Assembly: GCF_001579945.1 (NCBI RefSeq)
Contig: NZ_CP011971.1
Span: 832,001 to 896,000, forward strand
Direction of reading: 5' to 3'
DNA: 64,000 nucleotides
DNA from: Steroidobacter denitrificans
Lineage (GTDB): Bacteria > Pseudomonadota > Gammaproteobacteria > Steroidobacterales > Steroidobacteraceae
Part shown: positions 2,264 to 21,765 of the stretch, piece after piece
How positions within the stretch are numbered: position 1 is the first letter of the stretch
Layout of the letters: every line of letters starts with the position of its first letter
The notes under the pieces: model-generated
What the model was told of the DNA's origin: nothing
The model's database searches: none
The model's input: only the letters and a program-made list of their open reading frames with translations
Made by a program: the position numbers and the translations under genes

Positions 2264-3301
2264 ATGGAAATTTTTGCTTCCACCCCGGAGCACTGCGGCA
2301 TCGAGGCCATCGGTGACTTCGCGCGGCGCGCAGAGAGGCTTGGCTACAACGGCATCTTTGTTGCCGATGCAATTCATGACGGTCTGCTGCTCGCCTGCCA
2401 GGCGCTGGCGGCCACGACGCGCTTGAAGGTTGCCATCTCGGTGCTGGTGGCTTTTCCACGCAGCCCGATGAACGTTGCGCTTGCCGCCTGGGATTTGCAG
2501 AAGATGTCGGGTGGGCGATTCGAACTCGGGCTGGGTAGCCAGATCCGGCAGAATATCGAGGAGCGCTATTCTGCGCGCTGGCGGCCGCCGGCCGCCGGCA
2601 TGAAGGATTACATCGGCGCACTGCGGGCTATCTTTCGCAGCTTCCGCAATCCGCGTGAACCGCTGAACTTCATTGGAGAGTACTACCGCTTCACACGTCT
2701 ACAGCCCTTTTTCAATCCCGGTCCCATCGAGGCGCCCGACATACCGATTGCCCTGGGCGCCGTGGGGCCGAAGATGCTGCGCTTGGCAGGAAACGTGGCC
2801 GATGGTCTATACACCCATCCGACCAACACCTCGCCGCGCTATTTGCGCGAAGTCATCCTGCCTGGGGTGGCGGCGGGTGCGTTCGATCGAGACGCGGCGC
2901 TCGCGCCGCCCAAGATCAGCGTTTTGCAGTTGACGGCCATGGGGCCGGACGCAGGAGCGGTGGCTGCCGAGCGCCAACGTCTGCGCGGGCTGCTCGCCTT
3001 TCTTTTTTCCACGCCGGCCTACTGGCCCAGTCTTGCACTGTTCGGCTGGCAGGATGTGGGACCTGACCTGCAGCAGCTGACGCGCGAGGGGCGCTGGCAG
3101 GACATGGCCGCTGCGCTGCCGGAAGCCCTGCTCGATGAGTTTCTGGTGTGCGCGACATACGAAGACTTACCCGAGGCGCTGGCCGGGCGCTTCGCCGATC
3201 TGGCCTGTCGTATCACGCTGCCGCTACCCGACGATGTCGACCAGGATGCGGTATTGACGCGAGTCGTCGCGGCGATCCGCGCGCGCTGGGTTGCAAGGTA
3301 A
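2264..3301 (+). CDS. LLM-class flavin-dependent oxidoreductase
   Basis: 345 residues with the luciferase-like monooxygenase (LLM) TIM-barrel layout: an early beta strand, GYNGIFVADAIHD near residues 30-42, VAFPRSPMNVA near 65-75, and GGRFELGLGSQI near 83-94, the usual flavin/phosphate region of this family. It is clearly paralogous to the product of 26371-27435, sharing the same LGLGSQ block and the FNPGP/FNPYV segment. Family members use reduced FMN or F420; the sequence does not settle which, and no F420 biosynthesis gene is present here. It is probably the last gene of a unit with DUF1214 and the sulfotransferase, and it converges on the TonB receptor gene across a hairpin. Confidence 0.85.
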   Translation: MEIFASTPEHCGIEAIGDFARRAERLGYNGIFVADAIHDGLLLACQALAATTRLKVAISVLVAFPRSPMNVALAAWDLQKMSGGRFELGLGSQIRQNIEERYSARWRPPAAGMKDYIGALRAIFRSFRNPREPLNFIGEYYRFTRLQPFFNPGPIEAPDIPIALGAVGPKMLRLAGNVADGLYTHPTNTSPRYLREVILPGVAAGAFDRDAALAPPKISVLQLTAMGPDAGAVAAERQRLRGLLAFLFSTPAYWPSLALFGWQDVGPDLQQLTREGRWQDMAAALPEALLDEFLVCATYEDLPEALAGRFADLACRITLPLPDDVDQDAVLTRVVAAIRARWVAR

Positions 3302-3510: not shown

Positions 3511-5664
3511 TCAGAAATCCAACGATACGTCCAGGCCGTAGCTGCGCGGCGCACCGAACATGGCAGTGGGCACGATGTAGCTGAAGTGGAAGGTATAGTA
3601 GTTTTCGTCGGTCAGGTTCTTACCCCAGAGCGAGAAACGCAGATTGCCGCCGTTGACGGGGATATCCGTCAGACTGAGACGCGCATCCAGCAGTCCGTAG
3701 GTATCGATATAGAGACCGCGTTGATACGAGGCCACCATCTTGTGTAGATAGTTGTAGGTCACCGAGGCCGTGGGCGTACCGAAGCTGGTATGCGGCCATT
3801 CGTATCCGGCGGTGGCCGACGCCTTGTGCCTGGGCGCCTGATCGTAAACGAATTGACTCTTTACATCATCGCCCACGCTGTTTCGAATGCTGTCGAAATG
3901 TGCATCCAGCCAGGCATAGGACAGGGACAGATTGAGTGCCGGGATGGGTCGGGCCGTGATATCGACCTCGGCGCCATTCACCGTCGCTTTGCCGGCATTG
4001 AGCATATCCGTGAGGCTGGGGGTCACCGGATCCATCACCGACACCTGCATGTCCTTGCGGTCGGTGGTGAACAGCGCGGCGTTCACCCGCAGCCGGTTGT
4101 CCAGCCAGGTGGACTTGAGGCCGAGTTCATAGCTTTCAGCGAATTCCGGCTTGAAGCCCGCGGAAAAGCGTTGCGGAGTGGTCGCAGTCAGGTTGAAACC
4201 GCCGGTCTGATAGCCCTTGGTCGCCTTGAGATAGACATTCATGTCATCGGTGAGATCGTAGGCGATGACACCGTTCGGGCTGAATTCGCTGAAGTCGCGA
4301 TCGCCGAACTCACGTGGAGCCGGTGTCGCTGCGCCCGAGACTGTGGTCGTCACTTGCCGGGTAGCCTTGCGCTCGTCCCAGGAGTAGCGCGCCCCGACCG
4401 TCAGGTGCAGACGCTGGGAGAACGCTGCCGGCGTATAGGTGGCCTGGCCGTAGACGGCATAGGCGGTGTTGTCCGCCGAGGTGTCGCGATCGATGTACAT
4501 ATTCGACATCGGTATCTGATTGATATCGTAGCTGGTGGCGCTTTCGTCAAAATAAAACAGGCCGCCGACATACTGCAGGCGCGAGTCCAGGGCTGTACCG
4601 ATCAGTTGCAGCTCCTGTGAAAACTGCCGCTGATGGGTGTCGATGATGTTGACGAGCACCGGGTCTGGTCCAAGCACCCCAGGGTGGTAGGGCATATAAG
4701 TGAAATTGTCGAGTTCGCGATAGCCGGTGATCGATTTCAGCTGCAGCGAATCGTTGATGTCGAAAGTTGCCGTGAGGTTGTGGCCCTGACCGGTGATGTC
4801 ATTGGGAATCAGATCCTTTACGGACGCCGAGCCTGTCTTGGGCCGGTGCGCTGTCACCGGATAAAGCGGCACCTGTCCCATCCAGACCGGGGTGTCTTCT
4901 ATCTCGGAGCGATCGAAGCTGTAGCGCAGATCCAGGCGATCGTTCGGCTGCCACAGCAATGCGGCCCGCCAGCCGCGCCGATCCTTGTCGCCGAAACGAT
5001 CGGCGCCGCTGCCGATATTGTTGATGTAGCCGTCCTCGGTCAGCCGCAGGTACGACAGTTCTGCCGCTGCCGTATCCCCCAGCGGAATATTGAGACGGGT
5101 CCGTGAATACTTGCGATCGCGGTTGCCGACCGTGAGATCCTGGCGAAAGTTGAAGCTGCCCAGCTGCGGGGCCTTGGTGATGAAATTGATCGCACCACCG
5201 GTCGAGTTACGGCCGTAGAGCGCACCCTGAGGACCACGCAATACTTCGATGCGCTCCAGATCCGCCGTTTCGGCGGATAATCCCTGGAAGCGGGCCATGT
5301 AGACACCGTCGACATAGATCGACACCTTCGGATCGTAGGTGATCTGGTCGTTGGCCTGGCCGATGCCGCGCATGATCAGGCGTCCGGTCGAGGCGCTGTT
5401 CGGGTGTTCGTTGATGATCAGTCCGGGTACATCGGTTTGCAGATCCGTGACCGCCTTGATACCGCGGTTCTCCAGGGCTTTGGTGGAAAACGCGAGGATG
5501 GAGATCGGCGTATCCTGGAGCGATTCTTCGCGCTTCTGGGCCGTGACGATGACTTCTTCAACGCCGGCGCTGGTATGCTGGTTCTGTGCTACGGCAGGTA
5601 GTGCGACAACAGTTGTCAGGGCCGCAGCGAGCGTCAGATTCATCAAGGAAGGAGAGGAGTGCAT
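3511..5664 (-). CDS. TonB-dependent outer-membrane receptor
   Basis: 717 residues from the ATG at 5664, preceded by AAGGAA at good spacing; an in-frame start 18 codons further upstream is less likely. The N-terminus is a signal peptide ending ...LPAVAQ. It is followed by the TonB-box-like EEVIVTAQKREE, the plug-domain motifs (LRGPQGALYGRNSTGGAINF), a long beta barrel, and a C-terminal strand ending in Phe (GLDVSLDF). There is no STN signalling domain, so it acts in uptake rather than FecIR-type signalling. It imports a scarce or large substrate across the outer membrane using TonB energy. The neighbouring CoA ligase cluster suggests an organic carbon source rather than a siderophore, but that is inference. 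Confidence 0.9.
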   Translation of the reverse strand: MHSSPSLMNLTLAAALTTVVALPAVAQNQHTSAGVEEVIVTAQKREESLQDTPISILAFSTKALENRGIKAVTDLQTDVPGLIINEHPNSASTGRLIMRGIGQANDQITYDPKVSIYVDGVYMARFQGLSAETADLERIEVLRGPQGALYGRNSTGGAINFITKAPQLGSFNFRQDLTVGNRDRKYSRTRLNIPLGDTAAAELSYLRLTEDGYINNIGSGADRFGDKDRRGWRAALLWQPNDRLDLRYSFDRSEIEDTPVWMGQVPLYPVTAHRPKTGSASVKDLIPNDITGQGHNLTATFDINDSLQLKSITGYRELDNFTYMPYHPGVLGPDPVLVNIIDTHQRQFSQELQLIGTALDSRLQYVGGLFYFDESATSYDINQIPMSNMYIDRDTSADNTAYAVYGQATYTPAAFSQRLHLTVGARYSWDERKATRQVTTTVSGAATPAPREFGDRDFSEFSPNGVIAYDLTDDMNVYLKATKGYQTGGFNLTATTPQRFSAGFKPEFAESYELGLKSTWLDNRLRVNAALFTTDRKDMQVSVMDPVTPSLTDMLNAGKATVNGAEVDITARPIPALNLSLSYAWLDAHFDSIRNSVGDDVKSQFVYDQAPRHKASATAGYEWPHTSFGTPTASVTYNYLHKMVASYQRGLYIDTYGLLDARLSLTDIPVNGGNLRFSLWGKNLTDENYYTFHFSYIVPTAMFGAPRSYGLDVSLDF

Positions 5665-5743
5665 GAATTTATTTCCTTCAGCCTTGCAGGCAGGTTGTGA
5701 CGTGTTGTGTATTAGCAACGATTAATGTAGCGATCTGTTATTT

Positions 5744-5779: not shown

Positions 5780-5866
5780 GTTTATTGCATCGTCCGAGCG
5801 GACTACGACCGTGAGACCTCGGCGGCGCTACTGTTGCGCCCGCCGCAAGCCGCGGTCGGTCATCCT

Positions 5867-7387
5867 ATGAGCATGAGTCCCACACAGTCTGGAGTCGAGT
5901 CTTTTTTTCGCCACATCGAGACGATCTGGACGCTGGATCCCGAGGCGAGAGCCATCGAATTCGGCGGACAGACGTTTACTTGGGGCGAGCTGCGTTCGGC
6001 CGTGACGACCATCGACGAGATGCTTGCCGAGGCTGGTATCGGGCCGGCAGCCGCCGTCGGTGTGCTGTTGCGCAACCGCCCCGGCATGCTTGCGGCGCTT
6101 CTGGCACTGCTGCTCTCGGATCGTTGCATCGTCAGTCTGAGTCCCTTCCAGCCCGAGGGCGATTTGCAGAAGGAGCTGCGTGAGCTTCGTCCCGATGCCG
6201 TGATCGCCGACGCCCAGGATTGGAAGGACGGCACGGTGCGAGCTGCCCGGGAGGCCGGTATCGTCGGCCTGTGCCTGCCCGATGGGAGACTTGGACCGCT
6301 GCAGCGGGTGGGGCATCTCGGCCGATCCGAGAGCCGGCGGGGTAGGGAACTTGCCGGTACTGCGCTCGAGATTCTTACCAGCGGTACCACGGGAAAACCC
6401 AAGCGTATCCGCATCGGCCGGGCGACGATGGCCGATGCGATCCTGGATGGGACCAGGAGCGGCGGCCAGTCCGCGGCGCCTTCGCTCAAGACGACTCCCA
6501 GCGTGATGTTTGCGCCGTTGATGCACGTCAGCGGCATGTTCGGTGCGCTGCTCTCGATCTATGAGGGCCGTCCGATCGTGCTGCTGGAGAAATTCTCGGT
6601 CGAACAATGGGTGGCGGCCATCAAGCAGCATCGTGTGCGTTTTTCCAGTCTTCCGCCGACGCCGATGAGCATGGTGCTGGAAGCGGATGTGCCACGCGAG
6701 GATCTCGCCAGCCTCATTGCCGTGCGGGCAGGCACTGCGCCGCTGCCGCCGGAGACGCAGCGCCGCTTCGAAGCCACCTATGGCATCCCGGTGCTCGTGC
6801 AGTACGGGGCGACCGAGTGGATGGGCGGTCTTGCCGGCTGGACGCTCGAGGATCATCGCAAGCATATTGCCACCAAGCTAGGCAGCGTCGGCCGGGCGCG
6901 TGGCGATGTGCGGCTGCGGGTGGTGGACGCCGACAGCGGCCGTGAGCTGCCGGTTGGCGAGATCGGCGTTCTCGAGGTGCTGCCGCGCCAGCGTCTGGGC
7001 GCCGATGCGTCATGGACCCGTACCAGCGATCTCGCCTCGCTCGATGCCGATGGATTCCTTTATATCCACGGCCGCGTGGACGACACCATCATTCGCGGCG
7101 GCTTCAAGGTCGATACCACCGCCGTTGCCGCCGTGCTGATGCAGCATCCGGGGGTGAAGGATGCTGCCGTGGTCGGTCTTTCCGATGAGCGGCTCGGTCA
7201 AATACCCGTGGCGGCCGTCGAGCTGCGTCAGGGAGTGGCGGCGCCAACCGAGGAAGAACTGCGCGCACATGCGCACCAACATCTCAGTCCTTATCAGATT
7301 CCCGTTCGTTTCAAACTCGTCGCGGCCTTGCCGCGCACGGTATCGATGAAAATCAGCCGCCCGGATGTGCTGGCGCTATTTGCTTGA
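5867..7387 (+). CDS. AMP-dependent acyl-CoA ligase
   Basis: 506 residues if started at the ATG at 5867; another ATG lies two codons later, and an upstream TTG is possible but unsupported. The adenylate-forming signature LTSGTTGKPKR lies near residues 170-180, the YGATEW motif near 308, and the C-terminal hinge and catalytic lysine region reads LPRTVSMKISR. The enzyme should form an acyl-AMP and then an acyl-CoA from a carboxylic acid. It overlaps no gene but its TGA is only 8 bases before the crotonase start, so the two are coupled. Context (crotonase, DUF2889 protein, 6-oxocamphor-hydrolase-like enzyme) suggests activation of a ring-cleavage acid. Confidence 0.9.
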   Translation: MSMSPTQSGVESFFRHIETIWTLDPEARAIEFGGQTFTWGELRSAVTTIDEMLAEAGIGPAAAVGVLLRNRPGMLAALLALLLSDRCIVSLSPFQPEGDLQKELRELRPDAVIADAQDWKDGTVRAAREAGIVGLCLPDGRLGPLQRVGHLGRSESRRGRELAGTALEILTSGTTGKPKRIRIGRATMADAILDGTRSGGQSAAPSLKTTPSVMFAPLMHVSGMFGALLSIYEGRPIVLLEKFSVEQWVAAIKQHRVRFSSLPPTPMSMVLEADVPREDLASLIAVRAGTAPLPPETQRRFEATYGIPVLVQYGATEWMGGLAGWTLEDHRKHIATKLGSVGRARGDVRLRVVDADSGRELPVGEIGVLEVLPRQRLGADASWTRTSDLASLDADGFLYIHGRVDDTIIRGGFKVDTTAVAAVLMQHPGVKDAAVVGLSDERLGQIPVAAVELRQGVAAPTEEELRAHAHQHLSPYQIPVRFKLVAALPRTVSMKISRPDVLALFA

Positions 7388-7395
7388 GGAATTCC

Positions 7396-8190
7396 ATGGA
7401 TATTACCTCCTACCCGGGGCTCAGCCTGACGCGCTCCGGACGCATCCTTACGGTGACCCTCGATCGGCCGGAGCAGCTCAACGCCGCCGATGAGGGGATG
7501 CACAGCTCGATCGCGCGAGTCTTCAGCGACTGCGCCGACGATCGCGACACCGACGTGGTGATTTTGACCGGAGCAGGCAAGGCGTTCTCCGCGGGCGGGG
7601 ATTACAACGCGATGCAGCTGTCCATCGACAACCCGGCACGCTTCGATCGGCTGGCGGTGGAGGCCAAGCGCATCGTTTTCTCGATGCTCGACTGTCCCAA
7701 GCCCATCATTGCCAAGGTGAATGGACATGCCGTCGGTTTCGGCGCCACGCTGGCACTCTTCAGCGATATCGTGTTTGCCGCGAATCACGCCAAAATCGGC
7801 GATCCGCACGTGCTCGTCGGCTACGTGGCCGGAGACGGCGGCGCGGCCATCTGGCCGCAGCTGATCGGCTACGCCAAGGCCAAGGAATTCCTGTTCACCG
7901 GTAAACTCCTGACGGCGGTGGAGGCGGAAAAGATCGGCCTGATCAACTATGCGCTTCCGGCCGAGGAACTCGATGGCGCTGTCCAGTCCTTCGCGGAGCG
8001 CCTGGCGGCCGGCGCCGCGAAGGCCATCCAATGGACCAAGCTCTCGGTCAATGTCGGTCTGAAGGCGATCGTTCATCCGGTGATGGAGGCCTCGATGGCC
8101 TACGAATCGCTGTCGGTACGCACCGAGGATCATCGCGAGGCGGTCGCGGCCCTGCGCGAGAAGCGCTCGCCCGTGTTTCGCGGGTGCTGA
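7396..8190 (+). CDS. Crotonase-family protein with atypical active site
   Basis: 264 residues, starting at the ATG at 7396. The crotonase fold is clear: CoA and oxyanion-hole segment AFSAGGDYNAM (residues 64-73), then NGHAVGFGATLALFSD (109-124) and IGDPHVLVGYVAGDGG (134-149). In classical enoyl-CoA hydratase the two catalytic glutamates (Glu144 and Glu164 of the rat enzyme) lie in these last two segments; here the aligned residues are T118 and H138. A GDGG motif with D147 follows. So it may be an isomerase, hydrolase or lyase of the crotonase family rather than a simple hydratase, although this DPHV/GDGG subfamily is usually annotated as enoyl-CoA hydratase. It lies in the same operon as the preceding CoA ligase. 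Confidence 0.85.
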   Translation: MDITSYPGLSLTRSGRILTVTLDRPEQLNAADEGMHSSIARVFSDCADDRDTDVVILTGAGKAFSAGGDYNAMQLSIDNPARFDRLAVEAKRIVFSMLDCPKPIIAKVNGHAVGFGATLALFSDIVFAANHAKIGDPHVLVGYVAGDGGAAIWPQLIGYAKAKEFLFTGKLLTAVEAEKIGLINYALPAEELDGAVQSFAERLAAGAAKAIQWTKLSVNVGLKAIVHPVMEASMAYESLSVRTEDHREAVAALREKRSPVFRGC

Positions 8191-8215: not shown

Positions 8216-9313
8216 GTGAGCACGACGTCCGTAACGCCCATTTGTCTCGATCCGTTCGAGACGGGCGGTTATCCCATCCATTGCCGCACACTCATCGTCG
8301 AGGTGTTTCAGGACGAGTCTGTTCAGGGTGAATCCGGCCGCGTGCGTGCATTGGCAACGATTCTCGATCTGCGCAAGCAGGGCTGGCTACCGACGGGAGG
8401 CGAACTGCAGACGGCGGGCATCATTCATCACATGTTGCTGGACGTGCTCGTGGATACGGTCAGCGGGCGCATCGAACGCTTCGAGCCGGGCCAGCAGGTG
8501 GTTGCCTTCGAGGCAAGCGAACGAACCGCGGGCGACAGTTGCCGCGATCCGATCCATCTGCTGCGCGGCATGGTCGGCGAGACGCTTGCAACCGGCAATA
8601 CGCGGCGGTTGCGCGAGATTTTCGGCGGACCTCTCGGGTGCAGCCATCTGCTCACGCTTGCGCAACTGGTGGTGTCCTTCCTGCCCGAGGTGATCGAACG
8701 CGAAAGGCGGGAGGCAACCGCGCGGCAGCATTGCCGCGAACGGGGCGAGCGTATTGCCAAGCGCATCATCGTCATCGATGGATTCGAATACGGCGACGGA
8801 AATCAGGAGGCGGCGATCCAGCTGACGGATGTGCATACACTGCCGTTTGCAGCCATGACCGGGCCGCTGGATCGATTCGGCGCCCAACATGAGGTGCGCG
8901 CGATCATCCGGGTCGATGCCGCCGCGATGACGATCAGCGCCTTCGATGCGGCGGAGCGCATGCGGACGCGCACCGATCTCGGCACCGCGGGCTGGCAGAA
9001 TCGGCACGAGGAACTCAGCTGGCTCGATGGGCACCCGGTGATGCAGGGACTTGCGCCGGCACTGCTGCACCGCTACGCCGCCGATACCTCTCGCGAGCCG
9101 TTGCTCGCCGCCCTGATCAACGTCGCTCCAAGTCTGGTACAGAGTCTGTCTGCGCGTGTTACGCGCATGATCGAGCTGGAGGCGCGCAGAGGCGGCCGTC
9201 TGAGCCTCGAGAAGGGGGCGGGTATCGGCGGCTTTCCGGATTCCTGCTATATCTGGCGTAGTGGTGGATGTATGACCAAGATGCGCCAGGCGCTTGAGCA
9301 GGCGAGCGATTGA
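8216..9313 (+). CDS. DUF2889 family protein
   Basis: 365 residues with a GTG start at 8216. The protein matches the DUF2889 pattern as I know it: an early VRALATILDLRKQ stretch, a GGPLGCSHLLTLAQL motif near residues 138-152, and DSCYIWRSGGCM near the C-terminus (341-352). The conserved Cys and His in the GCSH motif could bind a metal or act in catalysis, but no function has been assigned to the family that I can cite. It sits between two crotonase-family genes, and DUF2889 genes are often seen beside acyl-CoA metabolism genes. No signal peptide or membrane segment is visible, so it is probably cytoplasmic. Confidence 0.7.
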   Translation: MSTTSVTPICLDPFETGGYPIHCRTLIVEVFQDESVQGESGRVRALATILDLRKQGWLPTGGELQTAGIIHHMLLDVLVDTVSGRIERFEPGQQVVAFEASERTAGDSCRDPIHLLRGMVGETLATGNTRRLREIFGGPLGCSHLLTLAQLVVSFLPEVIERERREATARQHCRERGERIAKRIIVIDGFEYGDGNQEAAIQLTDVHTLPFAAMTGPLDRFGAQHEVRAIIRVDAAAMTISAFDAAERMRTRTDLGTAGWQNRHEELSWLDGHPVMQGLAPALLHRYAADTSREPLLAALINVAPSLVQSLSARVTRMIELEARRGGRLSLEKGAGIGGFPDSCYIWRSGGCMTKMRQALEQASD

Positions 9314-9402: not shown

Positions 9403-10173
9403 ATGTCCAGGCCGACCTACTTCGACAAATATGCCACCATCGCCTTCGAGCGGGACGCACAGGGCATCCTGGTGATGCGGCTGCACTCGGACAACGGTCC
9501 GGTGGTCTACACGCCGCAGCATCATGCCGATTGGACCGGCGCCTTCTACGACGTCGGTGTCGATCGCGATAATGCCGTCGTCATCATCACCGGCACCGGC
9601 GATACTTTTATCGATGACATCGCCTGGGACAAGGACGCCGCCCGTCCGCTCCAATGGGAGGACGTCCATGCCGAGGGCAAGCGTCTGATGCGCAACCTGC
9701 TCGATATCGAGGTGCCGGTGATCGGCGCGGTGAATGGCCCGGCCACCATCCACGCCGAGCTGGCGTGTCTGTCCGATATCACGCTGGCGGCCGAGGAGGC
9801 CACCTTCCAGGACAAACCGCATATTCCCTTCCACACCGTGCCGGGCGATGGCGTGCACATCGTTTGGCAGGAGCTGCTGGGAACGAATCGCGGCCGCTAT
9901 TTCCTGCTCACCGGGCAGGTGCTCGATGCGCGCCAGGCGCTTGACTGGGGTGTGGTGAACGAGGTGCTGCCGAGGCAGCGCCTGATGCCGCGTGCCCTGG
10001 AACTGGCGCGCCAGCTCGCCGCCTTGCCGCCGCTCACACGGCGCTACGCGCGTACGGCCTTGATCCAGCGTTTAAAGCGTCTGATGGACGAAAATATCGG
10101 CTACGGCCTCGCCCTGGAGGGGTTGGCCGCCGTCGAGATGATCGCTGCCCGCAAGGAGATGGCTGCCAAATAA
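9403..10173 (+). CDS. 6-oxocamphor hydrolase-like beta-diketone hydrolase
   Basis: 256 residues, ATG at 9403 with GAGG upstream. It is a crotonase-fold protein that aligns closely, from memory, with 6-oxocamphor hydrolase of Rhodococcus, a retro-Claisen enzyme that cleaves a carbon-carbon bond of a cyclic 1,3-diketone to give a keto acid. The published catalytic residues His45, His122, His145, Asp154 and Glu244 correspond to H41, H117, H140, D149 and E239 here, and flanking text such as EVPVI.AVNGP, FQD.PH, VPGDG, NRGRYFLLTGQ.LDAR and RRYAR also matches. Ring cleavage would yield an acid for the CoA ligase upstream. The substrate could be a camphor-like bicycle or another cyclic diketone. Confidence 0.8.
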   Translation: MSRPTYFDKYATIAFERDAQGILVMRLHSDNGPVVYTPQHHADWTGAFYDVGVDRDNAVVIITGTGDTFIDDIAWDKDAARPLQWEDVHAEGKRLMRNLLDIEVPVIGAVNGPATIHAELACLSDITLAAEEATFQDKPHIPFHTVPGDGVHIVWQELLGTNRGRYFLLTGQVLDARQALDWGVVNEVLPRQRLMPRALELARQLAALPPLTRRYARTALIQRLKRLMDENIGYGLALEGLAAVEMIAARKEMAAK

Positions 10174-10279: not shown

Positions 10280-12028
10280 TCATGCCTCGATCGAATCGCG
10301 TGCCGCCGCGCGGTGTTCTGCGAGGATCTCCCGGGTCACACCGACTCGATCGATTTTGTCGCTAGGCGTGCGCGGCAGCGCTTCAGGACGAAAATAGAAC
10401 GCTTGCGGCACCTTGTAAGCAGCCAGAAGTTTTTCGGTATGGGCGCGTAGTTCGTCGGCGTCTAGGACGTGGCCGGGCTGGGGAACCACTACGGCTATCG
10501 GCACTTCGCCCAAGCGGCTATCAGGAAGACCGATCGCCAGAACTTCCCGCACGCCCGGGTGTTCCACCAGCGCGCGTTCCACCTCGGCACAATAGATGTT
10601 TTCACCGCCGCTGATGATCATCAACTTCTTGCGGTCGGTGATGTAAAGATATCCCTGATCGTCGAACCTGCCGATATCCCCGGTGTGCATCCAACCGTGC
10701 TTGAACGTCGCCGCCGAGTCGGCCGGCAGTCCGAAATAGCCGCTCATCAACAGAGCGCCGCGGACCACGATCTCGCCTTGGGCGCCGGCGGGTAGATCCC
10801 GGCCATCCTCGTCGATCACCTTGACGTCGGCGATCGGCAGTATTTTTCCCACCGACTCGGGTCGCGCGAAAAAATCCTCACCGCTGACGCTGCAGACGGA
10901 ACCATTGGTTTCCGTCATGCCATAACCGGTAGCGAAAACCACATGCGGCAACACCTTATGAACATCGCGCAGGAGATTGGGCGGAAAGAAGGCACCGCCG
11001 GTTCCCACCACGGCCAGGGAGGACAGGTCGTGTTTGTGAAAGTCGGGTGAGCGCAGTAGATCCCAAAGCATCGAGGGCACCGCGGATATGGATTGGACAC
11101 CCTCGGCGCCGATCAGCCGCAAGGCATCTTCGGGATTCCAGCGATTCAGGATGACCAGCTTGCCGCCGGACGACAAGGCGGCGAGCACGCCATTGTGGCA
11201 ACCGGAGACATGAAACATGGGCGCAACTATCAGGGATACCGCTTGGCGAGTCGCGAATGCGGTTGCGGCTTCCGGACCTGCCAGCGCCTGAAACTTGGCG
11301 AACGACAGCGCGGCGCCGAACGTGGTGCCGCTCAGGCCTGCCAATACGCTGCGCTGGGTGAGCATGACGCCCTTGGCGAAACCCGTCGTTCCGCTGGTGA
11401 ACATCATCAGTGCGATGTCCGCGCCATCCACGGGTGCGCAACTGAGGCGTCCCGCCGACTCCCATCCGCGGATCAGCTCATCGAAGGAACTGTCCTTTGA
11501 GGAACGCAGCTGCTGCGCATCGTCGGTCAGCACGATCCTTGCCAATCGCTGACTGGCGCCATCGGCTGCCTGCAGGCGCTGGGCCCGCTTGGCATCGGCG
11601 ATGATCAGGCTGCAATCGGTGTCGCCGATCGCACGATCCAGTTCCGTGGGTGCGCCGCGGCTGTTGACCAGGACGGCGACGGCACCCGCTGCGGTGACGG
11701 CGAGGAAGGCGATGATCCACTCGGTGGAGTTTTGCATCACGATCGCGACCCGCTGACCCTTGTGTACCCCGAACCGCCGCGTCAAGGCTTGGGCGAGCTG
11801 CTGTGCCTTCTTGAAGACTTCCTCGAAGGTGTGATGTTGGTCGTTCTCGACCGTGAATACGCGTTGCGCGAAGCGCTCGGCCTGCCGATAGAGTTCGGGC
11901 AGCGTTTGCGGACAGTTCCCAAAGATTCTGCAGGGCGTCCCGTCGATCTCGATGGTCGTCATTTCGAAGGGAGCGCCGGGAGCGGTCAATGCCGCCCTGA
12001 TCGCGTCGTTGTCGACCTGTTTAGTCAT
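10280..12028 (-). CDS. AMP-dependent acyl-CoA ligase
   Basis: 582 residues from the ATG at 12028, which has GAGAGG upstream; a longer start 17 codons earlier is unsupported. The adenylation signature MFTSGTTGFAKGVMLT, the YGMTETNG motif, the TGD/DRKKLMIISGGENIY hinge block, and a C-terminal ALPRTPSDKIDR segment with the expected catalytic lysine are all present. It should activate a carboxylic acid as its CoA thioester. It follows the LysR-type regulator on the same strand with a 47-base gap, so the two may share a transcript. It converges on the 6-oxocamphor-hydrolase-like gene, about 100 bases away. The acid substrate cannot be read from sequence. Confidence 0.9.
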   Translation of the reverse strand: MTKQVDNDAIRAALTAPGAPFEMTTIEIDGTPCRIFGNCPQTLPELYRQAERFAQRVFTVENDQHHTFEEVFKKAQQLAQALTRRFGVHKGQRVAIVMQNSTEWIIAFLAVTAAGAVAVLVNSRGAPTELDRAIGDTDCSLIIADAKRAQRLQAADGASQRLARIVLTDDAQQLRSSKDSSFDELIRGWESAGRLSCAPVDGADIALMMFTSGTTGFAKGVMLTQRSVLAGLSGTTFGAALSFAKFQALAGPEAATAFATRQAVSLIVAPMFHVSGCHNGVLAALSSGGKLVILNRWNPEDALRLIGAEGVQSISAVPSMLWDLLRSPDFHKHDLSSLAVVGTGGAFFPPNLLRDVHKVLPHVVFATGYGMTETNGSVCSVSGEDFFARPESVGKILPIADVKVIDEDGRDLPAGAQGEIVVRGALLMSGYFGLPADSAATFKHGWMHTGDIGRFDDQGYLYITDRKKLMIISGGENIYCAEVERALVEHPGVREVLAIGLPDSRLGEVPIAVVVPQPGHVLDADELRAHTEKLLAAYKVPQAFYFRPEALPRTPSDKIDRVGVTREILAEHRAAARDSIEA

Positions 12029-12075
12029 TCGGAAAAGCCTCTCATGGGTCGATGGGATCCGGAACTCGACGATTC

Positions 12076-13008
12076 TCAAACGACGGACGTCGAAAGAGGG
12101 TGGGTCTCGAGATATTCAAGAAGAAAGTCGTTGAATGCCCGCACGCGGCGAGGCAGCTCGCGCGTGCCTGGCCGGATGATGTACACATAGGATGCGAGCG
12201 TGTGATACTGGGGCAGGACAATGACCAGGCGGCCTCTCGCCAGGTCCTTGTCGACCAGGAAGGTAGGGATGACACCGATTCCAGCCCCGGCACGGACAGC
12301 TTCCCGCACAAAAAAAATATCGTCGCAACATATAGGGCCCTGCGGCCGAAAAGTCGCTGAGCCTCTCTTGCTTTCCAGCCGGATGGAGGGCAGGCCGCGT
12401 TGCATGACCCATTTGTGGCCGGCCAGGTCGGCCGCCTGCCGCGGTACGCCGCTGGCCTGGAGATACTCCGGGGAAGCCATAAGTCTGGCGTGGATGGGGC
12501 AGGCCGGCCGTGCAATGAGCGATGAATCCTTCATTCGTTCGGGCCCCGCACGCAGGGCGACATCGAAGCCCTCTATTGCGAAGTCCATGGGCTGACTGTT
12601 TAGATAGAGATCGCAGTGCACGCGCGGATAGCGCTGGGTGAACTGCGTGACCGCATCGGCGAGGAAGGCGGTACCGAAGTAGTTCGGCGCCGAGATACGC
12701 AGTTCGCCGGTCGGCTCGCCGAACTGGTCCGGAGACTCAACGGCTGCTTCCTCCAGAGAAGCGATCAAGGTGGCGACACGCTTGTGAAGCGCAGCGCCTG
12801 CCGGGCTGAGCACGACCCGTCGCGTGGTACGGTGCAGAAGCGGCACACCCATGGCCGCTTCGAGTTCCGAGACGCGTCGGCTCACGGACCATTTCGGCAG
12901 ATTCAGCTTTCTGGCCGCCGCCGAGAAGCTTGCCGCATCCGCCACGGCAACGAACATGCGTAAAGCATTGAAGTCGATTCCTGCTCCTTGAGTTTTCTTG
13001 GTATCCAT
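12076..13008 (-). CDS. LysR-type transcriptional regulator
   Basis: 310 residues, with the start placed at the ATG at 13008 because the helix-turn-helix domain begins right after it (FNALRMFVAVADAASFSAAARKLNL, residues about 11-36). An extended upstream frame has no ribosome site. The rest is the usual LysR periplasmic-binding-like effector domain. The linker ESPDQFGEPTGELRISAP and the RAGPERMKDSSLIAR region are typical of the subgroup that includes DsdC/PecT-like regulators. It is divergent from the double hot-dog dehydratase gene at 13221, the standard arrangement for a LysR regulator and its target, and it also precedes a CoA ligase. The inducer is unknown. Confidence 0.9.
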   Translation of the reverse strand: MDTKKTQGAGIDFNALRMFVAVADAASFSAAARKLNLPKWSVSRRVSELEAAMGVPLLHRTTRRVVLSPAGAALHKRVATLIASLEEAAVESPDQFGEPTGELRISAPNYFGTAFLADAVTQFTQRYPRVHCDLYLNSQPMDFAIEGFDVALRAGPERMKDSSLIARPACPIHARLMASPEYLQASGVPRQAADLAGHKWVMQRGLPSIRLESKRGSATFRPQGPICCDDIFFVREAVRAGAGIGVIPTFLVDKDLARGRLVIVLPQYHTLASYVYIIRPGTRELPRRVRAFNDFLLEYLETHPLSTSVV

Positions 13009-13220
13009 CGCGGCGTTGATTTGAGATATCGCTTGCAGCGCAGAACCCACGAGGAGGGCGCCTGAGGGCATTCTGGAGCACAGGAGCAGCCCAGGCAAGG
13101 CGTTCGGATGCGTGGTCGGACTCCGGCTGCCGCGATAAATAGTCTGTTTGGCCGATGAGTCGTCAGCCCGCAGCAACGACAGTGGTATATTTCGACGCCC
13201 TGATGCTGGAGGAGTTGCAG

Positions 13221-14498
13221 ATGAGTGGCGAGGAGACGGTTTCCGCAGAAGGCAGGATCACCGCGGAGGATATCGAGCGGGCGCAGGCGCAGATCGGGAT
13301 ACCGCAGTATGAGCGCAACCCGGTATTCAATCGGGTAGCGGGCAGCGACACCATCAGTCACTTTGCCTTCGGGATCGGCGACGACAATCCTCTCTGGCAC
13401 GATCCGGACTATGGCCGCACGACGCGCTGGCGCGGTCAAATAGCATCGCCGTTGTACGCTACCACCGTCGGCCTGGACGATACGCCTCGCCCGACTCCCG
13501 AACTCAAGAAGCTTTTTCGCGGCTTGTTTCGCGGTGTCGGCAAATACTACTCCGGCGCAACCTGGGAATGGTACCGGCCGATCCGCCCTGGCGAGGTGAT
13601 CTATCGGGAGTACACCACCTCCGATGTACAGGTAAAGGAGAACTCGAGTTTCAGCGGCGGATTGACCGTTATCGACAGTTACCGGTACTTCTATGTGAAC
13701 GCCAACGGCGAACCGGTGGCGACGCATGAGTTGAGCTTCGTCAACGCCGAACGCCAGGCATCGAAGAAGCAGGGACGCAACAAGGACATCCAGCGGGCAC
13801 GTTACACGCCCGAAGACATCGAGCGGATCGATGCGCTCTACGCGGCCGAGGAAGTTCGCGGTAGCAACAAGCGCTATTGGGAAGATGTGCAGGTCGGCGA
13901 TGAACTTGCTCCGGTGGTGAAGGGACCGCTGCGCGTGACCGATGTCGTGGGTTTCCATATCGGCTGGGGATTCGGCCAGATGTATGGAGCCGGGCCGTTG
14001 CGCTATGGCTGGAAACAACGGCGGCGAACACCGGCGTTCTACACCACGGATGAGTTCGGCGTGCCGGATATCGTGCAGCGGCTGCACTGGGATCCGGCGC
14101 GAGCCCGGGAACTCGGGCTGCCGGCACCCTATGACTATGGCACGATGCGCACCAACTGGCTGGGGCATCTGCTGACGAACTGGATGGGGGATGACGGCTG
14201 GCTGGTGCGTCTCAAGACCGAGATGCGCTCCTTCAATTTTGTCGGCGACACCACGATCTGCTCGGGCGTGGTACGGGCCAAGTCCATCGAGGGTCCGCGC
14301 CGCCTCGTGGAAATCGAGGTTCGGACGACCAATCAGCGCGGCGAGGTCACAAGTCCGGGTACGGCTACCGTGCTGCTGCCCTCACGCGAAGCGGGGGCCG
14401 TCGCTTTGCCCGCACCGCCCGAGGCGCTGATCGCGCGTGGCGCGAACATGATGGCCGAAGCTGCGGATCGCGGCAGGGGTGGCGAGAGCAGCCGTTAG
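13221..14498 (+). CDS. FAS1-like/MaoC double hot-dog dehydratase
   Basis: 425 residues from the ATG at 13221, chosen because GGAGGAG lies 6 bases upstream; in-frame starts at 13155 and 13203 lack this. The N-terminal half matches the MaoC-like N-terminal (FAS1-type dehydratase) domain: VFNRVAGSDTISHFAFGIGDDNPLWHDP with the DDNPLW segment. The second half has a hot-dog-like core with GDDGWLVRLKTEMRSFNFVGDT. Such proteins hydrate enoyl-CoA or act as acyl dehydratases in bulky-substrate beta-oxidation. Note that the canonical MaoC D...H catalytic pair cannot be placed with certainty. It is probably controlled by the divergent LysR regulator. Confidence 0.75.
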   Translation: MSGEETVSAEGRITAEDIERAQAQIGIPQYERNPVFNRVAGSDTISHFAFGIGDDNPLWHDPDYGRTTRWRGQIASPLYATTVGLDDTPRPTPELKKLFRGLFRGVGKYYSGATWEWYRPIRPGEVIYREYTTSDVQVKENSSFSGGLTVIDSYRYFYVNANGEPVATHELSFVNAERQASKKQGRNKDIQRARYTPEDIERIDALYAAEEVRGSNKRYWEDVQVGDELAPVVKGPLRVTDVVGFHIGWGFGQMYGAGPLRYGWKQRRRTPAFYTTDEFGVPDIVQRLHWDPARARELGLPAPYDYGTMRTNWLGHLLTNWMGDDGWLVRLKTEMRSFNFVGDTTICSGVVRAKSIEGPRRLVEIEVRTTNQRGEVTSPGTATVLLPSREAGAVALPAPPEALIARGANMMAEAADRGRGGESSR

Positions 14499-15052
14499 GG
14501 CGCAGTGACCGGCCAAGGCGCTCTGCGAGGTTTCCATAAGGCAACATGAAGGCAACATGCTTCCATCTCATAAGGAGCGTACGGCGTGCCGGCAGTGCCG
14601 ATGCGGCCGAAGGTATCAAGGCGTTCCTGGAAAAGCGCAAGCCTGTTTCCGTGGGGGTCAATCAGGCGCTGGTGCATGTGAAATTTCACATATTCCATTC
14701 ATGCCTCGCTCAGCCGTCCTGATCGGCTGGAAGCATTGCCGCCGTCAGCTGGACATCAGGGATTGAGACGGCTATTTTAAAGCGTTTACCCATGACGACG
14801 CTCAATGCCGGTACGGGGTAAACACGTTGGGCGGGGATCCGCGTGCCGGTACCGGGAAGCGTTCGAACAAACAGCGATCCGCTCCGGTGTCGGCGCATGC
14901 CGTACGGTCCTACTACAGTTCATCACTGTCGTGCATCCTGGATGCGGCAGCCACGCGAGCTCGTTCATGAAACGCAGCCGTATGGCTGTGCCTGTGTGTG
15001 CTGTTCGGCCTGGTGACTTGAACCCGCAATCCATTGCAAGAGAAATCCCTCC
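14499..15052. other. Intergenic region without a supported gene
   Basis: About 550 bases upstream of pccB. Short open frames on both strands have no recognisable content. The only clear structure is the palindrome at 14676-14691. The region presumably holds the pccBA promoter, but I cannot assign a convincing -35/-10 pair. Confidence 0.5.
14676..14691. promoter_or_regulatory. Perfect 16-bp palindrome upstream of pccB
   Basis: ATGTGAAATTTCACAT is a perfect palindrome about 360 bases before pccB. It resembles a CRP/FNR-type site in half-site sequence (TGTGA/TCACA), but the spacer is 4 bases, where the CRP consensus has 6. It is a plausible operator for a dimeric regulator; the regulator is not identified. 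Confidence 0.35.
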
Positions 15053-16585
15053 ATGTACGACATCATCGAACAGCTCGAGGAGAAACGCGCTGCGGCACGT
15101 TTGGGCGGCGGCACCAAGCGTATCGATGCCCAGCATGCCAAGGGCAAACTCACCGCACGCGAGCGTCTGGAGCTGCTGCTGGACCCCGGCACGTTCGAGG
15201 AATGGGACATGTTCGTCGAGCATCGCTGTGCGGAGTTCGGCATGGCCGACAACAAGATTCCGGGCGACGGGGTGGTGACCGGCTACGGGATGATCAATGG
15301 CCGACTTGCATTCGTCTTCAGCCAGGATTTCACCGTTTTCGGCGGTGCGCTCTCGGAAGCGCACGCGGAGAAGATTTGCAAGGTCATGGATCAGGCCATG
15401 AAGGTCGGGGCGCCGGTGATCGGCCTCAACGATTCAGGCGGCGCGCGCATCCAGGAGGGGGTGGCCTCGCTGGGCGGCTATGCGGAGGTCTTCCAGCGCA
15501 ATGCGCTGGCCTCGGGCGTCATTCCGCAAATCAGCCTGATCATGGGCCCTTGTGCCGGCGGCGCGGTGTATTCCCCGGCGATGACCGACTTCATTTTCAT
15601 GGTGAAGGACTCGAGCTACATGTTCGTGACCGGGCCGGAAGTGGTGAAGACGGTGACGCACGAGGAGGTCACCTCCGAGGAGTTGGGCGGCGCCGGTACT
15701 CACAGCACCCGAAGCGGCGTTGCGGATCTGGCATTCGAGAACGACGTCGAAGCGATCCTCATGCTGAGGCGTTTTTTCAACTACCTGCCGCTCAACAACC
15801 GGGATAAACCTTCGGTGCGTCCGGGCAGCGATCAGCGCGACCGGGTGGACATGAGTCTGGATACGCTCATGCCCGATAATCCGAACAAGCCCTACGATAT
15901 GAAGGAGCTGATCCTGAAAGTCGTCGATGACGGCGACTTCTTCGAGTTGCAGCCCACCTTTGCTGCGAACATCGTCATCGGCTTCGCGCGCATGGAGGGT
16001 GCGACGGTGGGCGTGGTGGCGAACAATCCGATGGTGCTGGCCGGCTGCCTGGACATCAAGAGCAGCATCAAGGCGGCACGCTTCGTGCGTTTCTGCGATG
16101 CCTTCAATATTCCGGTGATCACCTTCGTCGATGTGCCCGGCTTCCTGCCGGGTACCGCTCAGGAATACGGCGGCATCATCAAGCACGGCGCCAAACTGCT
16201 CTACGCCTATGCCGAGTGCACGGTGCCGAAGGTCACGGTCATTACGCGCAAAGCCTATGGCGGGGCGTATGATGTGATGAGCTCCAAGCATCTGCGCGGT
16301 GACGTCAACTTCGCCTGGCCGAGCGCCGAGATCGCAGTGATGGGCGCCAAGGGAGCGGTCGAGATCATTTTCCGCGATTATAAGGGCGATCCGGCCAAAC
16401 TGGCCGCCCGCGAAGCCGAGTACAAGGCACGCTTTGCCAATCCCTTTGTCGCCGGCGCGCGCGGCTACATCGACGATGTGATCCAGCCGCATGAGACGCG
16501 CAAGCGCATCTGCCGCAGCCTTGCGATGCTCAAGGACAAGAAACTCGAGAACCCCTGGCGCAAGCACGGAAACATTCCACTCTGA
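15053..16585 (+). CDS. pccB: Propionyl-CoA carboxylase beta subunit
   Basis: 510 residues, the usual length of PccB-type carboxyltransferase subunits. It begins with the family pattern [21 protein letters not shown] near residues 18-38, followed by [20 protein letters not shown] and [16 protein letters not shown], the acyl-CoA and oxyanion segments of the N-terminal crotonase-like domain. The C-terminal domain has [21 protein letters not shown] and [14 protein letters not shown], which bind carboxybiotin. The enzyme transfers carboxyl from biotin to propionyl-CoA to make methylmalonyl-CoA, and it pairs with the alpha subunit gene 21 bases downstream. Odd-chain or methyl-branched products of sterol or terpenoid breakdown would feed it. 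A broader acyl-CoA range (acetyl, butyryl) is possible. Confidence 0.92.
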
Positions 16586-16606
16586 CAGGGGTACGGAGAA
16601 GACTCG

Positions 16607-18634
16607 ATGTTCAAGAAGATTCTTATCGCCAATCGGGGCGAGATCGCCTGCCGCGTCATCAAAACGGCGCGCCGCATGGGCATACGGACCGTGGCTGTTT
16701 ATTCCGAGGCCGACGCCGACGCGCTGCATGTGTCGCTCGCCGACGAAGCCGTTCTGCTCGGCCCGCCGCCGAGCCGCGAGAGCTATCTCGCGGCCGACAA
16801 GATCATTGCAGCATGCAGGGCGACCGGCGCTGAGGCGGTACACCCGGGCTACGGCTTTTTGTCCGAGAACGAGGGCTTTGCCAGGCAGGTCGAGGCCGAG
16901 GGTATCGTCTTCATCGGACCCAAGCACGCGAGCATCGCGGCGATGGGCGATAAGATCGCCTCCAAGAAGCTGGCTCAACAGGCCGGCGTCAACACCATTC
17001 CCGGTTGGAACGACGCGATCGAGTCCGCCGAGGCGGCAGTGAGCATCGCTGGCAAGATCGGCTATCCGGTGATGATCAAAGCCAGCGCCGGCGGCGGCGG
17101 CAAGGGCCTGCGCGTCGCCTGGAACGATGCGGAAGCCTTCGACGGTTTTACCTCCTGCCGTAACGAGGCCAGGGTGAGCTTCGGTGATGAGCGGGTCTTC
17201 ATCGAGAAGTTCGTCGAGCAGCCGCGCCACATCGAGATCCAGGTGCTGGGCGATGCGCACGGCAATGTGGTCTACCTCAACGAGCGCGAGTGTTCGATCC
17301 AGCGCCGGCACCAGAAAGTCATCGAGGAGGCGCCGTCGCCTTTCATCAGCGAGCAGACCCGCAAGGCAATGGGCGAGCAGGCGGTGGCGCTGGCCAGGGC
17401 AGTCGCATATCAGAGCGCCGGGACGGTCGAGTTCGTGGTCGGCAAGGACCAGGGTTTTTATTTCCTGGAGATGAACACACGGCTGCAGGTCGAGCATCCG
17501 GTCACCGAGTGCATTACCGGCATCGATCTTGTGGAGCAGATGATCCGCATCGCCGCGGGCGAGAAGCTGGCATTCACGCAAGCCGGCATTCCGCGCCGCG
17601 GCTGGGCGATAGAGTGTCGCATCAACGCCGAGGATCCTTTTCGTAATTTTCTGCCCAGCACCGGACGGCTCGCCCGGTATCTGCCGCCGGCGACCACGAT
17701 GGAAGCCGCGGCGCCGGTGCCCGAAGGCGGCGGTGTGCGCGTCGATACCGGTGTCTATGAAGGCGGCGAGATCCCGATGTATTACGACTCGATGATCGCC
17801 AAGCTCATCGTCCATGGGTCCGACCGCGATGAGGCGATACAGCGCATGCGCGAGGCCTTGAACGGCTTCGTGATTCGCGGCGTCGCCAGCAATATCGCCT
17901 TTCAGGCCGCGCTGCTGGCGCATCCGCGGTTCATTGCCGGTGACTTCGATACCGGATTTGTAGCGCAGCACTACGGCGGCGGTTTCAAGGCCGAGGATGT
18001 GGCGCACGATGACCCTGACTTCCTGGTCGCACTGGCTGCGGCCACCTATCGCCGCTACCGCGAGCGCGCGACGCGTATCAACGGTCAGTTGCCCGGCTAC
18101 GAGATGCGTATCGGCGAGGATTTCGTGGTCGCCATCAAGCACGAGGGCGGCGCGCATGAGGATGTGCCGGTGCGCGTGCGCGTCGAGGGCGCGACCCTGG
18201 TCGAGGTGCGCGGCAAGACTTATGCGATCACGCAGGAGTGGAATTTCGGCAGCATTCGCACCAGCGGCAGCTGCAACGGCCGGCCATTCACCGCACAGAT
18301 CGAGCGCAACGGCCTGTGGTCCCATGTCACGCACAACGGCTGCCGCATCGAAGTGCTGGTGATGTCGGCGCGCGCCAGCGAACTGTTGCGCGTCATGCCC
18401 TTCAAGACACCGCCGGATATGAGCGGTTTTCTGCTCAGCCCGATGCCGGGTCTGCTGGTGGAAGTCGCGGTTGAGCCGGGCCAGACGGTACGGGCCGGAG
18501 AGCGCCTGGCGGTGGTCGAGGCGATGAAGATGGAGAATGTTCTCGTTGCCGGCCGTGACGGCAGGATCAAGGAGATCCTGGCCAGCGAGGGCGCCAGTCT
18601 GACCGTGGATCAACCCATCCTGAGTTTCGAGTGA
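16607..18634 (+). CDS. pccA: Propionyl-CoA carboxylase alpha (biotin) subunit
   Basis: 675 residues. The biotin carboxylase domain begins at the first residue (FKKILIANRGEIACRVIK), has the glycine-rich ATP loop KASAGGGGKGLRV near 153-165 and the EMNTRLQVEHPVTE motif near 287-300. A middle linker domain follows, and the C-terminal biotinyl domain carries EAMKMEN with the biotinylated lysine at residue 641. It carboxylates biotin using ATP and bicarbonate. Length and architecture match alphaproteobacterial and mitochondrial PccA, not the shorter AccC. The stop overlaps the GTG start of the following MFS gene, so pccB, pccA and the transporter form one operon. Confidence 0.93.
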   Translation: MFKKILIANRGEIACRVIKTARRMGIRTVAVYSEADADALHVSLADEAVLLGPPPSRESYLAADKIIAACRATGAEAVHPGYGFLSENEGFARQVEAEGIVFIGPKHASIAAMGDKIASKKLAQQAGVNTIPGWNDAIESAEAAVSIAGKIGYPVMIKASAGGGGKGLRVAWNDAEAFDGFTSCRNEARVSFGDERVFIEKFVEQPRHIEIQVLGDAHGNVVYLNERECSIQRRHQKVIEEAPSPFISEQTRKAMGEQAVALARAVAYQSAGTVEFVVGKDQGFYFLEMNTRLQVEHPVTECITGIDLVEQMIRIAAGEKLAFTQAGIPRRGWAIECRINAEDPFRNFLPSTGRLARYLPPATTMEAAAPVPEGGGVRVDTGVYEGGEIPMYYDSMIAKLIVHGSDRDEAIQRMREALNGFVIRGVASNIAFQAALLAHPRFIAGDFDTGFVAQHYGGGFKAEDVAHDDPDFLVALAAATYRRYRERATRINGQLPGYEMRIGEDFVVAIKHEGGAHEDVPVRVRVEGATLVEVRGKTYAITQEWNFGSIRTSGSCNGRPFTAQIERNGLWSHVTHNGCRIEVLVMSARASELLRVMPFKTPPDMSGFLLSPMPGLLVEVAVEPGQTVRAGERLAVVEAMKMENVLVAGRDGRIKEILASEGASLTVDQPILSFE

Positions 18635-20236: not shown

Positions 20237-20734
20237 TTGTCCAAGGGGAGGCTGCCTGAGGATCGGCTGGGATGGCGCGCTCTAGTGCGCCGTGTGGGGT
20301 GGGCAACCCGTAGGCCAGGACAAGCCGAAGATCTACTGCACTCGGCATTTTTACGCCTCGAGGAGTACCGCTCGCGTCATACAGTTGAGAATCCAGCGGC
20401 CTTTCTGGTGCGGGTGGCGGTCAATATGGCCATTGATGAGCGTCGGCACGAGCGGATACGCGCCGAGACTCCTGAATCGATTCACGATTTGGTCGATCTT
20501 TCAGACGACCAACCGCTCCAAGATGAGGTTTTGGCCGCTCGAGAACGTCTGGAAAGAGTGAAGGACGGACTTGCAGAGCTGAGTCCGCGCACCCGTGAGA
20601 TTTTTCTGATGCATCGGATCGAAGGGCTGAAATACCGAGAGATTGCCGCACAGCTTGGTATTACTGTCAGCGCAGTTGAGAAGCACGTTGCCCGAGCCGC
20701 ACTATTCCTGATCGAATGGATCGAGGGTTGGTGA
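20237..20734 (+). CDS. ECF (FecI-like) RNA polymerase sigma factor
   Basis: 165 residues. The start is a TTG at 20237, supported by a strong GAGGAGAGG site 7 bases upstream; no ATG is available before the region 2 homology. Region 2 (AEDLLHSAFLRLEEYR...ENPAAFLVRVAVNMAIDERR) and the region 4 helix-turn-helix (LSPRTREIFLMHRIEGLKYREIAAQLGITVSAVEKHVARA) are intact. FecI-type sigma factors direct transcription of a receptor operon when released by a FecR anti-sigma protein. The FecR gene starts after a single base and the cognate STN-type TonB receptor follows. Base composition is lower in GC than in the flanking genes, as for the whole 20.2-26.2 kb block. Confidence 0.92.
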   Translation: MSKGRLPEDRLGWRALVRRVGWATRRPGQAEDLLHSAFLRLEEYRSRHTVENPAAFLVRVAVNMAIDERRHERIRAETPESIHDLVDLSDDQPLQDEVLAARERLERVKDGLAELSPRTREIFLMHRIEGLKYREIAAQLGITVSAVEKHVARAALFLIEWIEGW

Positions 20735-20735
20735 G

Positions 20736-21701
20736 GTGAGCAACATACAATCGAGAAGAATTTCTCCGGCTGTTAAAGCCGAGGCAGCTGTATGGTTCGC
20801 ACGTCTACGCTCTGAAGAGCGCAGGCGCGAGGACGAGGTAAGCTTTCGTGCATGGCTATCGGAAGATGTTCGTCACCGGGAAGCCTTCGAACTCGTCACG
20901 ATGGCGTGGGATACAGCCGGTGAACTGGTTGTTCCTATACGGCTCTATCGGCACTCACAACGACTACAACTGATGAGTCGGCGTGCGTTGACGTTGGGTG
21001 GCGCGGTGGCCTTAGCATCGTTCGCTGGCGTCGGACTATGGCGAATAGTAGCTGCTGATGCGTATGCTACGGGGGTCGGTGAACAACGCCGTATAGCTCT
21101 CGACGACGGCTCTTATGTAATTCTCGATACGAACACCCGCATCCGCGTGGCATTCACCAAGACACGCCGGGATATCGAACTGATAGAAGGTCGGGCCTAC
21201 TTTGAAGTTGCAACTGATCCGCTGCGACCGTTCCTTGTGCGCGCAGGAGATAGACAAGTTATCGCCATCGGCACGGCCTTTGACGTTGCTTTTGAGGAAA
21301 GTCGATTGGCCGTAGTGCTCGTGGAAGGCCGTGTGGCGGTGCAACCTATTACGCTGTCACCGCAGCCGGTGACCCGAGTGTTGTCACCTGGTGAACGAAT
21401 CGTTTTTGATCGCGCTCGTGAGATCATTAAGGATCAACCCGATCTTGCGCAGGTGACTGCGTGGCAGAGCGGCCGTGTAGTCTTCGACGATCAGACGCTT
21501 GCTGAAGCAGTGACTGAGATGAATCGCTACAGTCGGCGGCCTATTGTGATTGCCGATGAACAGCTGGCGGCCTTCCGTATCAGTGGCGTCTACAGCACTG
21601 GGGATCCCGAGTCCTTCGCCCGCTCCGTGTCCATCCTGCTGCCGGCGCAAGTGGAACTCACGCCAATGCAGATCGTGCTTCGTGCTGCTGAGGAAAGTTA
21701 G
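20736..21701 (+). CDS. FecR-type anti-sigma factor
   Basis: 321 residues, GTG start one base after the sigma factor stop. The cytoplasmic N-terminus has the DUF4880/sigma-binding pattern (AEAAVWFARLRSEERRREDEVSFRAWL, residues 10-36). A single membrane segment follows (RRALTLGGAVALASFAGVGL, about residues 79-98). The periplasmic part is the FecR domain (GEQRRIALDDGSYVILDTNTRI; FEVATDPLRPFLVRAGDRQV) and a C-terminal DUF4974-like STN-interacting domain. It relays the state of the TonB receptor in the outer membrane to the sigma factor. Together with its neighbours it is a complete cell-surface signalling cassette. Confidence 0.92.
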   Translation: MSNIQSRRISPAVKAEAAVWFARLRSEERRREDEVSFRAWLSEDVRHREAFELVTMAWDTAGELVVPIRLYRHSQRLQLMSRRALTLGGAVALASFAGVGLWRIVAADAYATGVGEQRRIALDDGSYVILDTNTRIRVAFTKTRRDIELIEGRAYFEVATDPLRPFLVRAGDRQVIAIGTAFDVAFEESRLAVVLVEGRVAVQPITLSPQPVTRVLSPGERIVFDRAREIIKDQPDLAQVTAWQSGRVVFDDQTLAEAVTEMNRYSRRPIVIADEQLAAFRISGVYSTGDPESFARSVSILLPAQVELTPMQIVLRAAEES

Positions 21702-21765
21702 TCTTGACTCGTCATCTTTATTATGAAGGGTCATTCGGGTGCGATAATTAAAAAGAGGGTGGTTC

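Follow-up and report, generated by a model that had tools for sequence, protein, structure and literature searches.

A probable CoA-independent cyclic beta-diketone hydrolase of the OCH/ABDH branch near the steroid-degradation genes of Steroidobacter denitrificans

Within the 64,000-nucleotide stretch of Steroidobacter denitrificans DNA analysed here (the window), the forward-strand gene at 9403..10173 encodes a crotonase-fold protein, hereafter the hydrolase, which raises the questions of what reaction it catalyses and which catabolic route it serves. A focus on steroids is warranted because the ring-cutting enzymes of this bacterium have yet to be found and the gene lies near its steroid-degradation genes. 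For the anaerobic 2,3-seco pathway, the A-ring hydrolase has been described as unidentified (PMC6678751), "no candidates" have been named for the hydrolase of ring B, and the acyl-CoA synthetase required after the opening of ring A is likewise reported as unknown (PMC6678751, PMC6208644).

The open reading frame begins with ATG, is preceded by an in-frame stop 33 bases 5' of that codon and shows a coding-type GC content by codon position (0.68/0.42/0.82). The original prediction had described a 256-residue crotonase-fold protein with H41, H117, H140, D149 and E239, and had held that these residues match the catalytic set of 6-oxocamphor hydrolase (OCH) from Rhodococcus with a near-constant offset. 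All of these features were found as described, and the alignment pairs the five residues one-to-one with those of OCH, at an offset of +4 or +5, and with those of the Anabaena beta-diketone hydrolase ABDH (alr4455). We take the OCH residues to be H45, H122, H145, D154 and E244, and H122 could be read directly from the alignment by means of the H122A mutant 1szo. The numbering was checked against the printed OCH sequences and against the residues reported for ABDH, namely H43, H144, D153 and E243 (PMC3584854). In an alignment of 15 sequences, H41, H117, H140 and D149 never vary and E239 hardly does; across 45 family rows from several phyla, the first four positions are invariant or show one miss, and the fifth is occupied by E or Q. 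The complete five-residue set occurs in no other crotonase of the genome among those compared (about 12 of its 18 ECH_1 proteins).

Sequence comparison with solved structures gave the best matches to 2j5g (ABDH; 51% identity) and 1o8u (OCH; 52% identity), both scoring 268 bits, whereas the next crotonase reaches 80 bits; this similarity is far beyond chance. The structural comparison with OCH that had also been proposed points in the same direction: the AlphaFold2 model of the hydrolase (pLDDT of 92.6) retrieved OCH and ABDH chains (1o8u, 1szo, 2j5g and 2j5s) at Foldseek ranks 1 to 12, with TM-scores of 0.92 to 0.97 and rmsd values mostly of 0.9 to 1.2 A, and the E-values of the remaining crotonases were worse by about 14 orders of magnitude. 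In the maximum-likelihood tree, a node with 100/100 support splits the OCH-type rows from the other crotonases of the genome, and the hydrolase falls in a 99/99 clade with the proteins of genomes G091 and G155 and two Sphingobium plasmid proteins, nested in a 97/99 clade that contains ABDH. The hydrolase occupies another position inside this clade than ABDH, whereas OCH belongs to a separate supported clade together with proteins of Rhodococcus sp. 008 and Aeromicrobium. The pocket position of OCH Trp40 also differs, being Y36 in the hydrolase and Phe in ABDH.

On this sequence and model evidence, we consider it about 85% probable that the 9403..10173 product belongs to the OCH/ABDH branch of the crotonase superfamily and hydrolyses cyclic beta-diketones without CoA. 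The product is best called an OCH/ABDH-type beta-diketone hydrolase, a member of a family that is already known and in which membership is ordinary. The earlier name, "6-oxocamphor-hydrolase-like", placed the protein in the right branch, as sequence, residues, fold and tree agree, but proved too narrow, since the tree groups the protein with ABDH; moreover, no camphor gene set was found among the neighbouring genes. Camphor is an unlikely growth substrate, and the steroid context is better supported.

Other crotonases also cut carbon rings. BadI cleaves a ring ketone hydrolytically. BadI and EchA20/ScdY share with the hydrolase the fold and the hydrolytic C-C cleavage of ring ketones predicted for it, but they act on CoA thioesters, whereas the hydrolase belongs to the CoA-independent branch. 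For EchA20, the C-C hydrolysis of a ring ketone has been described (PMC6678751).

The mechanism that we propose is transferred by analogy from OCH and ABDH, the fold and the residues being computed here. The H140/D149 pair would activate a water molecule for attack on a cyclic 1,3-diketone at one of its carbonyls, H117 together with H41 and E239 would bind and polarise the carbonyls, and the ensuing retro-Claisen C-C cleavage would release a keto acid. As an intermediate in terpenoid- or steroid-type catabolism, this acid would then be converted to its CoA thioester for beta-oxidation, whether by either of the nearby ligases, by a different ligase or by a CoA-transferase. As candidate substrates, the 1,3-diketones of the anaerobic 2,3-seco steroid pathway are the most attractive, above all the non-enolisable C1/C5 diketone for the opening of ring B.

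The genes upstream of the hydrolase are an LLM-class oxidoreductase (2264..3301, plus strand; TIGR03617), a TonB-dependent receptor (3511..5718, minus strand), an AMP-forming acyl-CoA ligase (5834..7387, plus strand), a second crotonase (7384..8190, plus strand) and a 365-residue DUF2889 protein (8216..9313, plus strand). The receptor is divergent to the ligase, an arrangement kept in G091, and the ligase, crotonase and DUF2889 genes are closely spaced, the first two overlapping and the third ending directly upstream of the hydrolase with a gap of 90 bp. The ligase is a candidate for the activation of the ring-cleavage acid. Downstream, a second AMP-forming ligase (10280..12079, minus strand) is convergent with the hydrolase gene and adjoins a LysR-type regulator (12076..13176, minus strand); its second-best curated match is CasG, a steroid-24-oyl-CoA synthetase, at 395 of 750 bits, far under the cut-off. 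Beside the regulator and the second ligase, a MaoC-like dehydratase and a two-gene biotin-dependent acyl-CoA carboxylase occupy 13155-18634. Further on, genes for an ECF sigma factor, FecR and an STN-type TonB receptor follow one another at 20237-24390 and likely form a self-regulated uptake system.

The neighbouring crotonase at 7384..8190 is of the EchA15 type, its nearest solved relative being 3q1t/EchA15. Crotonases of this type (3q1t, 7m3w) share the H, H, D and E positions with the hydrolase, and in the neighbour the positions of H41, H140, D149 and E239 are kept; however, a glycine replaces H117, and the match to the hydrolase is much weaker. For 3q1t, an active-site comparison led to the proposal of a beta-diketone hydrolase instead of a hydratase (PMC3584854). 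Two AtcA-bearing relatives have this neighbour at 91-92% identity. The genome carries two DUF2889 genes (8216-9313 and G000:C1:110035-110784), and each stands directly 3' of a crotonase gene.

Within the bacterial family, the 365-residue form of DUF2889 is confined to three AtcA-bearing genomes, and the ligase/crotonase/DUF2889 group is kept in G091 and G149 with identities of 79-82%, 91-92% and 73-74%, respectively, with an S15-type hydrolase gene placed between crotonase and DUF2889. In G091, the group is present without the diketone hydrolase, whose 62% homologue adjoins a CoA-transferase III gene on a separate contig; the contig of G149 ends just past DUF2889, before the site at which a hydrolase gene could follow, and AtcB- and AtcC-type genes are found about 2 kb past its ligase. 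In G155, the diketone hydrolase has thiolase and CoA-transferase III genes as neighbours. The absence of the hydrolase gene from the conserved group in G091 speaks against the explanation favoured here; the ligase at 5834 (5867 in the original prediction) may act on the product of the hydrolase, as had been proposed. Elsewhere in the genome, a Peptidase_S15/CocE-type hydrolase (G000:C1:807590-809335; L054:2590-4335) is 87-92% identical in G086, G087, G091 and G149, its counterparts in G091 and G149 being those placed within the ligase/crotonase/DUF2889 group, and it may hydrolyse rings or esters at another step of the pathway.

In named genomes, a first pass recovered 25 loci with relatives of the hydrolase, of which about 17 were of the hydrolase type, and plasmids added 35 records; the relatives are distributed over Actinomycetota, Pseudomonadota, Chloroflexota and Deinococcota, and the viral contigs searched held no relative. 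Genes for CoA activation recur beside them. In particular, homologue, ECH and AMP-ligase are consecutive on plasmid pMI1 of Sphingobium sp. MI1205, which contradicts the original expectation that such genes rarely accompany a CoA ligase in Gram-negative bacteria; homologue and AMP-ligase are adjacent in Rhodococcus sp. 008, CoA-transferase III and thiolase genes lie near the relatives at L059 and L060, and SDRs and P450 genes near others. Hence the gene link from hydrolase to CoA activation and beta-oxidation recurs among the relatives, and we place the hydrolase, with moderate confidence, in a terpenoid- or steroid-type catabolism with later CoA activation.

In L025 (a Dehalococcoidales MAG) and L097 (the Pseudonocardia plasmid pBCI1-2), the diketone-hydrolase homologue directly adjoins three-subunit xanthine-oxidase-family genes, hinting at a module of enone hydratase/dehydrogenase and diketone hydrolase. 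L009 and L010 (Porticoccaceae/Pseudomonadales MAGs) carry two tandem diketone-hydrolase paralogues, which are possibly specialised for different substrates. A molybdoenzyme at L095, beside the homologue of N. pentaromativorans, had been considered as Atc-like support and was dropped, being of the formate-dehydrogenase/nitrate-reductase type.

As regards the steroid context, the genome consists of a single contig of 3,467,246 bases, on which the degenerate atcA primers designed for anaerobic androgen degraders (PMC5554518) match with 23/23 and 26/27 bases and delimit an amplicon of about 1.17 kb, close to the 1.2 kb reported for Steroidobacter denitrificans. The atcA gene, at C1:780924, precedes the hydrolase gene by 60 kb and has AtcB- and AtcC-type genes alongside. 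AtcA or a 57% relative is present in 6 of the 217 genomes of the bacterial family; in plasmids, the search for AtcA returned only xanthine-oxidase-family relatives below 60% identity (best, 38.5%). Close homologues of the hydrolase (>300 bits) occur in three of the six AtcA-bearing genomes of the family versus none of the 211 others, and the hydrolase gene is absent from G086 (100% complete) and G087, both of which have AtcA. This co-occurrence is incomplete and confounded by genome relatedness, and we regard it as suggestive.

Several readings of the role of the hydrolase can be weighed against these data, and the doubts expressed about them concern substrate and role within the OCH/ABDH assignment, which only the last of them, an enoyl-CoA hydratase, contradicts. 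The one that survives best, to which we would give a little less than even odds, is that the hydrolase works in an unrelated pathway for terpenoid or alicyclic compounds or has a broad detoxifying function. Many plant-associated relatives, among them those in Pantoea, Rhizobium and Methylobacterium, stand in glutathione S-transferase, alkene reductase and LysR surroundings, and those in Paraburkholderia and Sphingobium in P450/GMC-oxidoreductase settings that look terpenoid-catabolic. Such a role agrees less well with the restriction of close homologues, within the family, to AtcA-bearing genomes, and with the 100 kb around the hydrolase, which are rich in CoA-dependent catabolic genes.

A rather doubtful but specific proposal assigns to the hydrolase one of the C-C hydrolysis steps that lack an enzyme in the anaerobic 2,3-seco pathway. 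Ring B (the C1/C5 diketone around quaternary C10) would be its likeliest target, and an Amidohydro_2 protein encoded beside atcA would cut ring A. The ring-B substrate, 2,5-seco-3,4-dinorandrost-1,5,17-trione, has carbonyls that flank a quaternary, methyl-bearing carbon, as in 6-oxocamphor, so that by chemical reasoning it contains the substructure of the OCH substrate. Taken by itself, the action of the hydrolase on this trione seems unlikely, although it would fill a step for which the literature names no enzyme and would suit the steroid-degrader setting of the genome; the two AtcA-carrying genomes G086 and G087 lack the gene, and a steroid would have to fit a pocket known for small bicyclic compounds.

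It is also possible to hypothesize that the hydrolase acts on ring A, converting (17-hydroxy-)androstan-1,3-dione, the product of AtcABC, to 2,3-SAOA, and the distance of 60 kb to atcABC, the nature of this substrate (a cyclic 1,3-diketone), the vacancy of the step in the published pathway and the xanthine-oxidase-family neighbours of the L025 and L097 relatives all speak for it. We nevertheless consider it improbable. OCH and ABDH prefer non-enolisable diketones, and half of the AtcA-bearing genomes lack a close homologue. A second gene, moreover, fits the step better: outside the window, directly 3' of atcA, the Amidohydro_2 gene at C1:783351-784331 (L052:18351-19331) is found directly behind atcA in all five genomes with an AtcA orthologue, four relatives being 84-87% identical to the copy here, and its phyletic pattern is exactly that of AtcA (6/217), with 39% identity in G155. 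The hydrolase had at one stage been favoured for ring A on account of its link to atcABC, and this role was downgraded because there are AtcA genomes without the gene and because Amidohydro_2 tracks AtcA exactly. The Amidohydro_2 protein is thus a strong candidate for the A-ring 1,3-dione hydrolase and a better one than the hydrolase, for which, with low confidence, we rank a ring-B or accessory role before ring A.

Finally, that the hydrolase is an ordinary enoyl-CoA hydratase, as its Pfam ECH_1 match (81 bits) and the automatic annotation of most plasmid relatives ("enoyl-CoA hydratase/isomerase family") would have it, is very hard to reconcile with the much stronger OCH/ABDH match, with the histidine at position 140 where crotonase L002 of the same genome has a glutamate, and with the NCBIfam hydratase models, none of which scores over its cut-off (best, 108 of 354 bits).

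Thus, the analysis supplies candidates for two steps of steroid C-C hydrolysis that a 2019 review described as unidentified, the hydrolase for ring B and the atcA-linked amidohydrolase for ring A. If either assignment is true, oxygen-independent opening of the steroid rings could be reconstituted with defined enzymes. For the family at large, genes that carry the name "enoyl-CoA hydratase" in many genomes probably encode CoA-independent diketone hydrolases.
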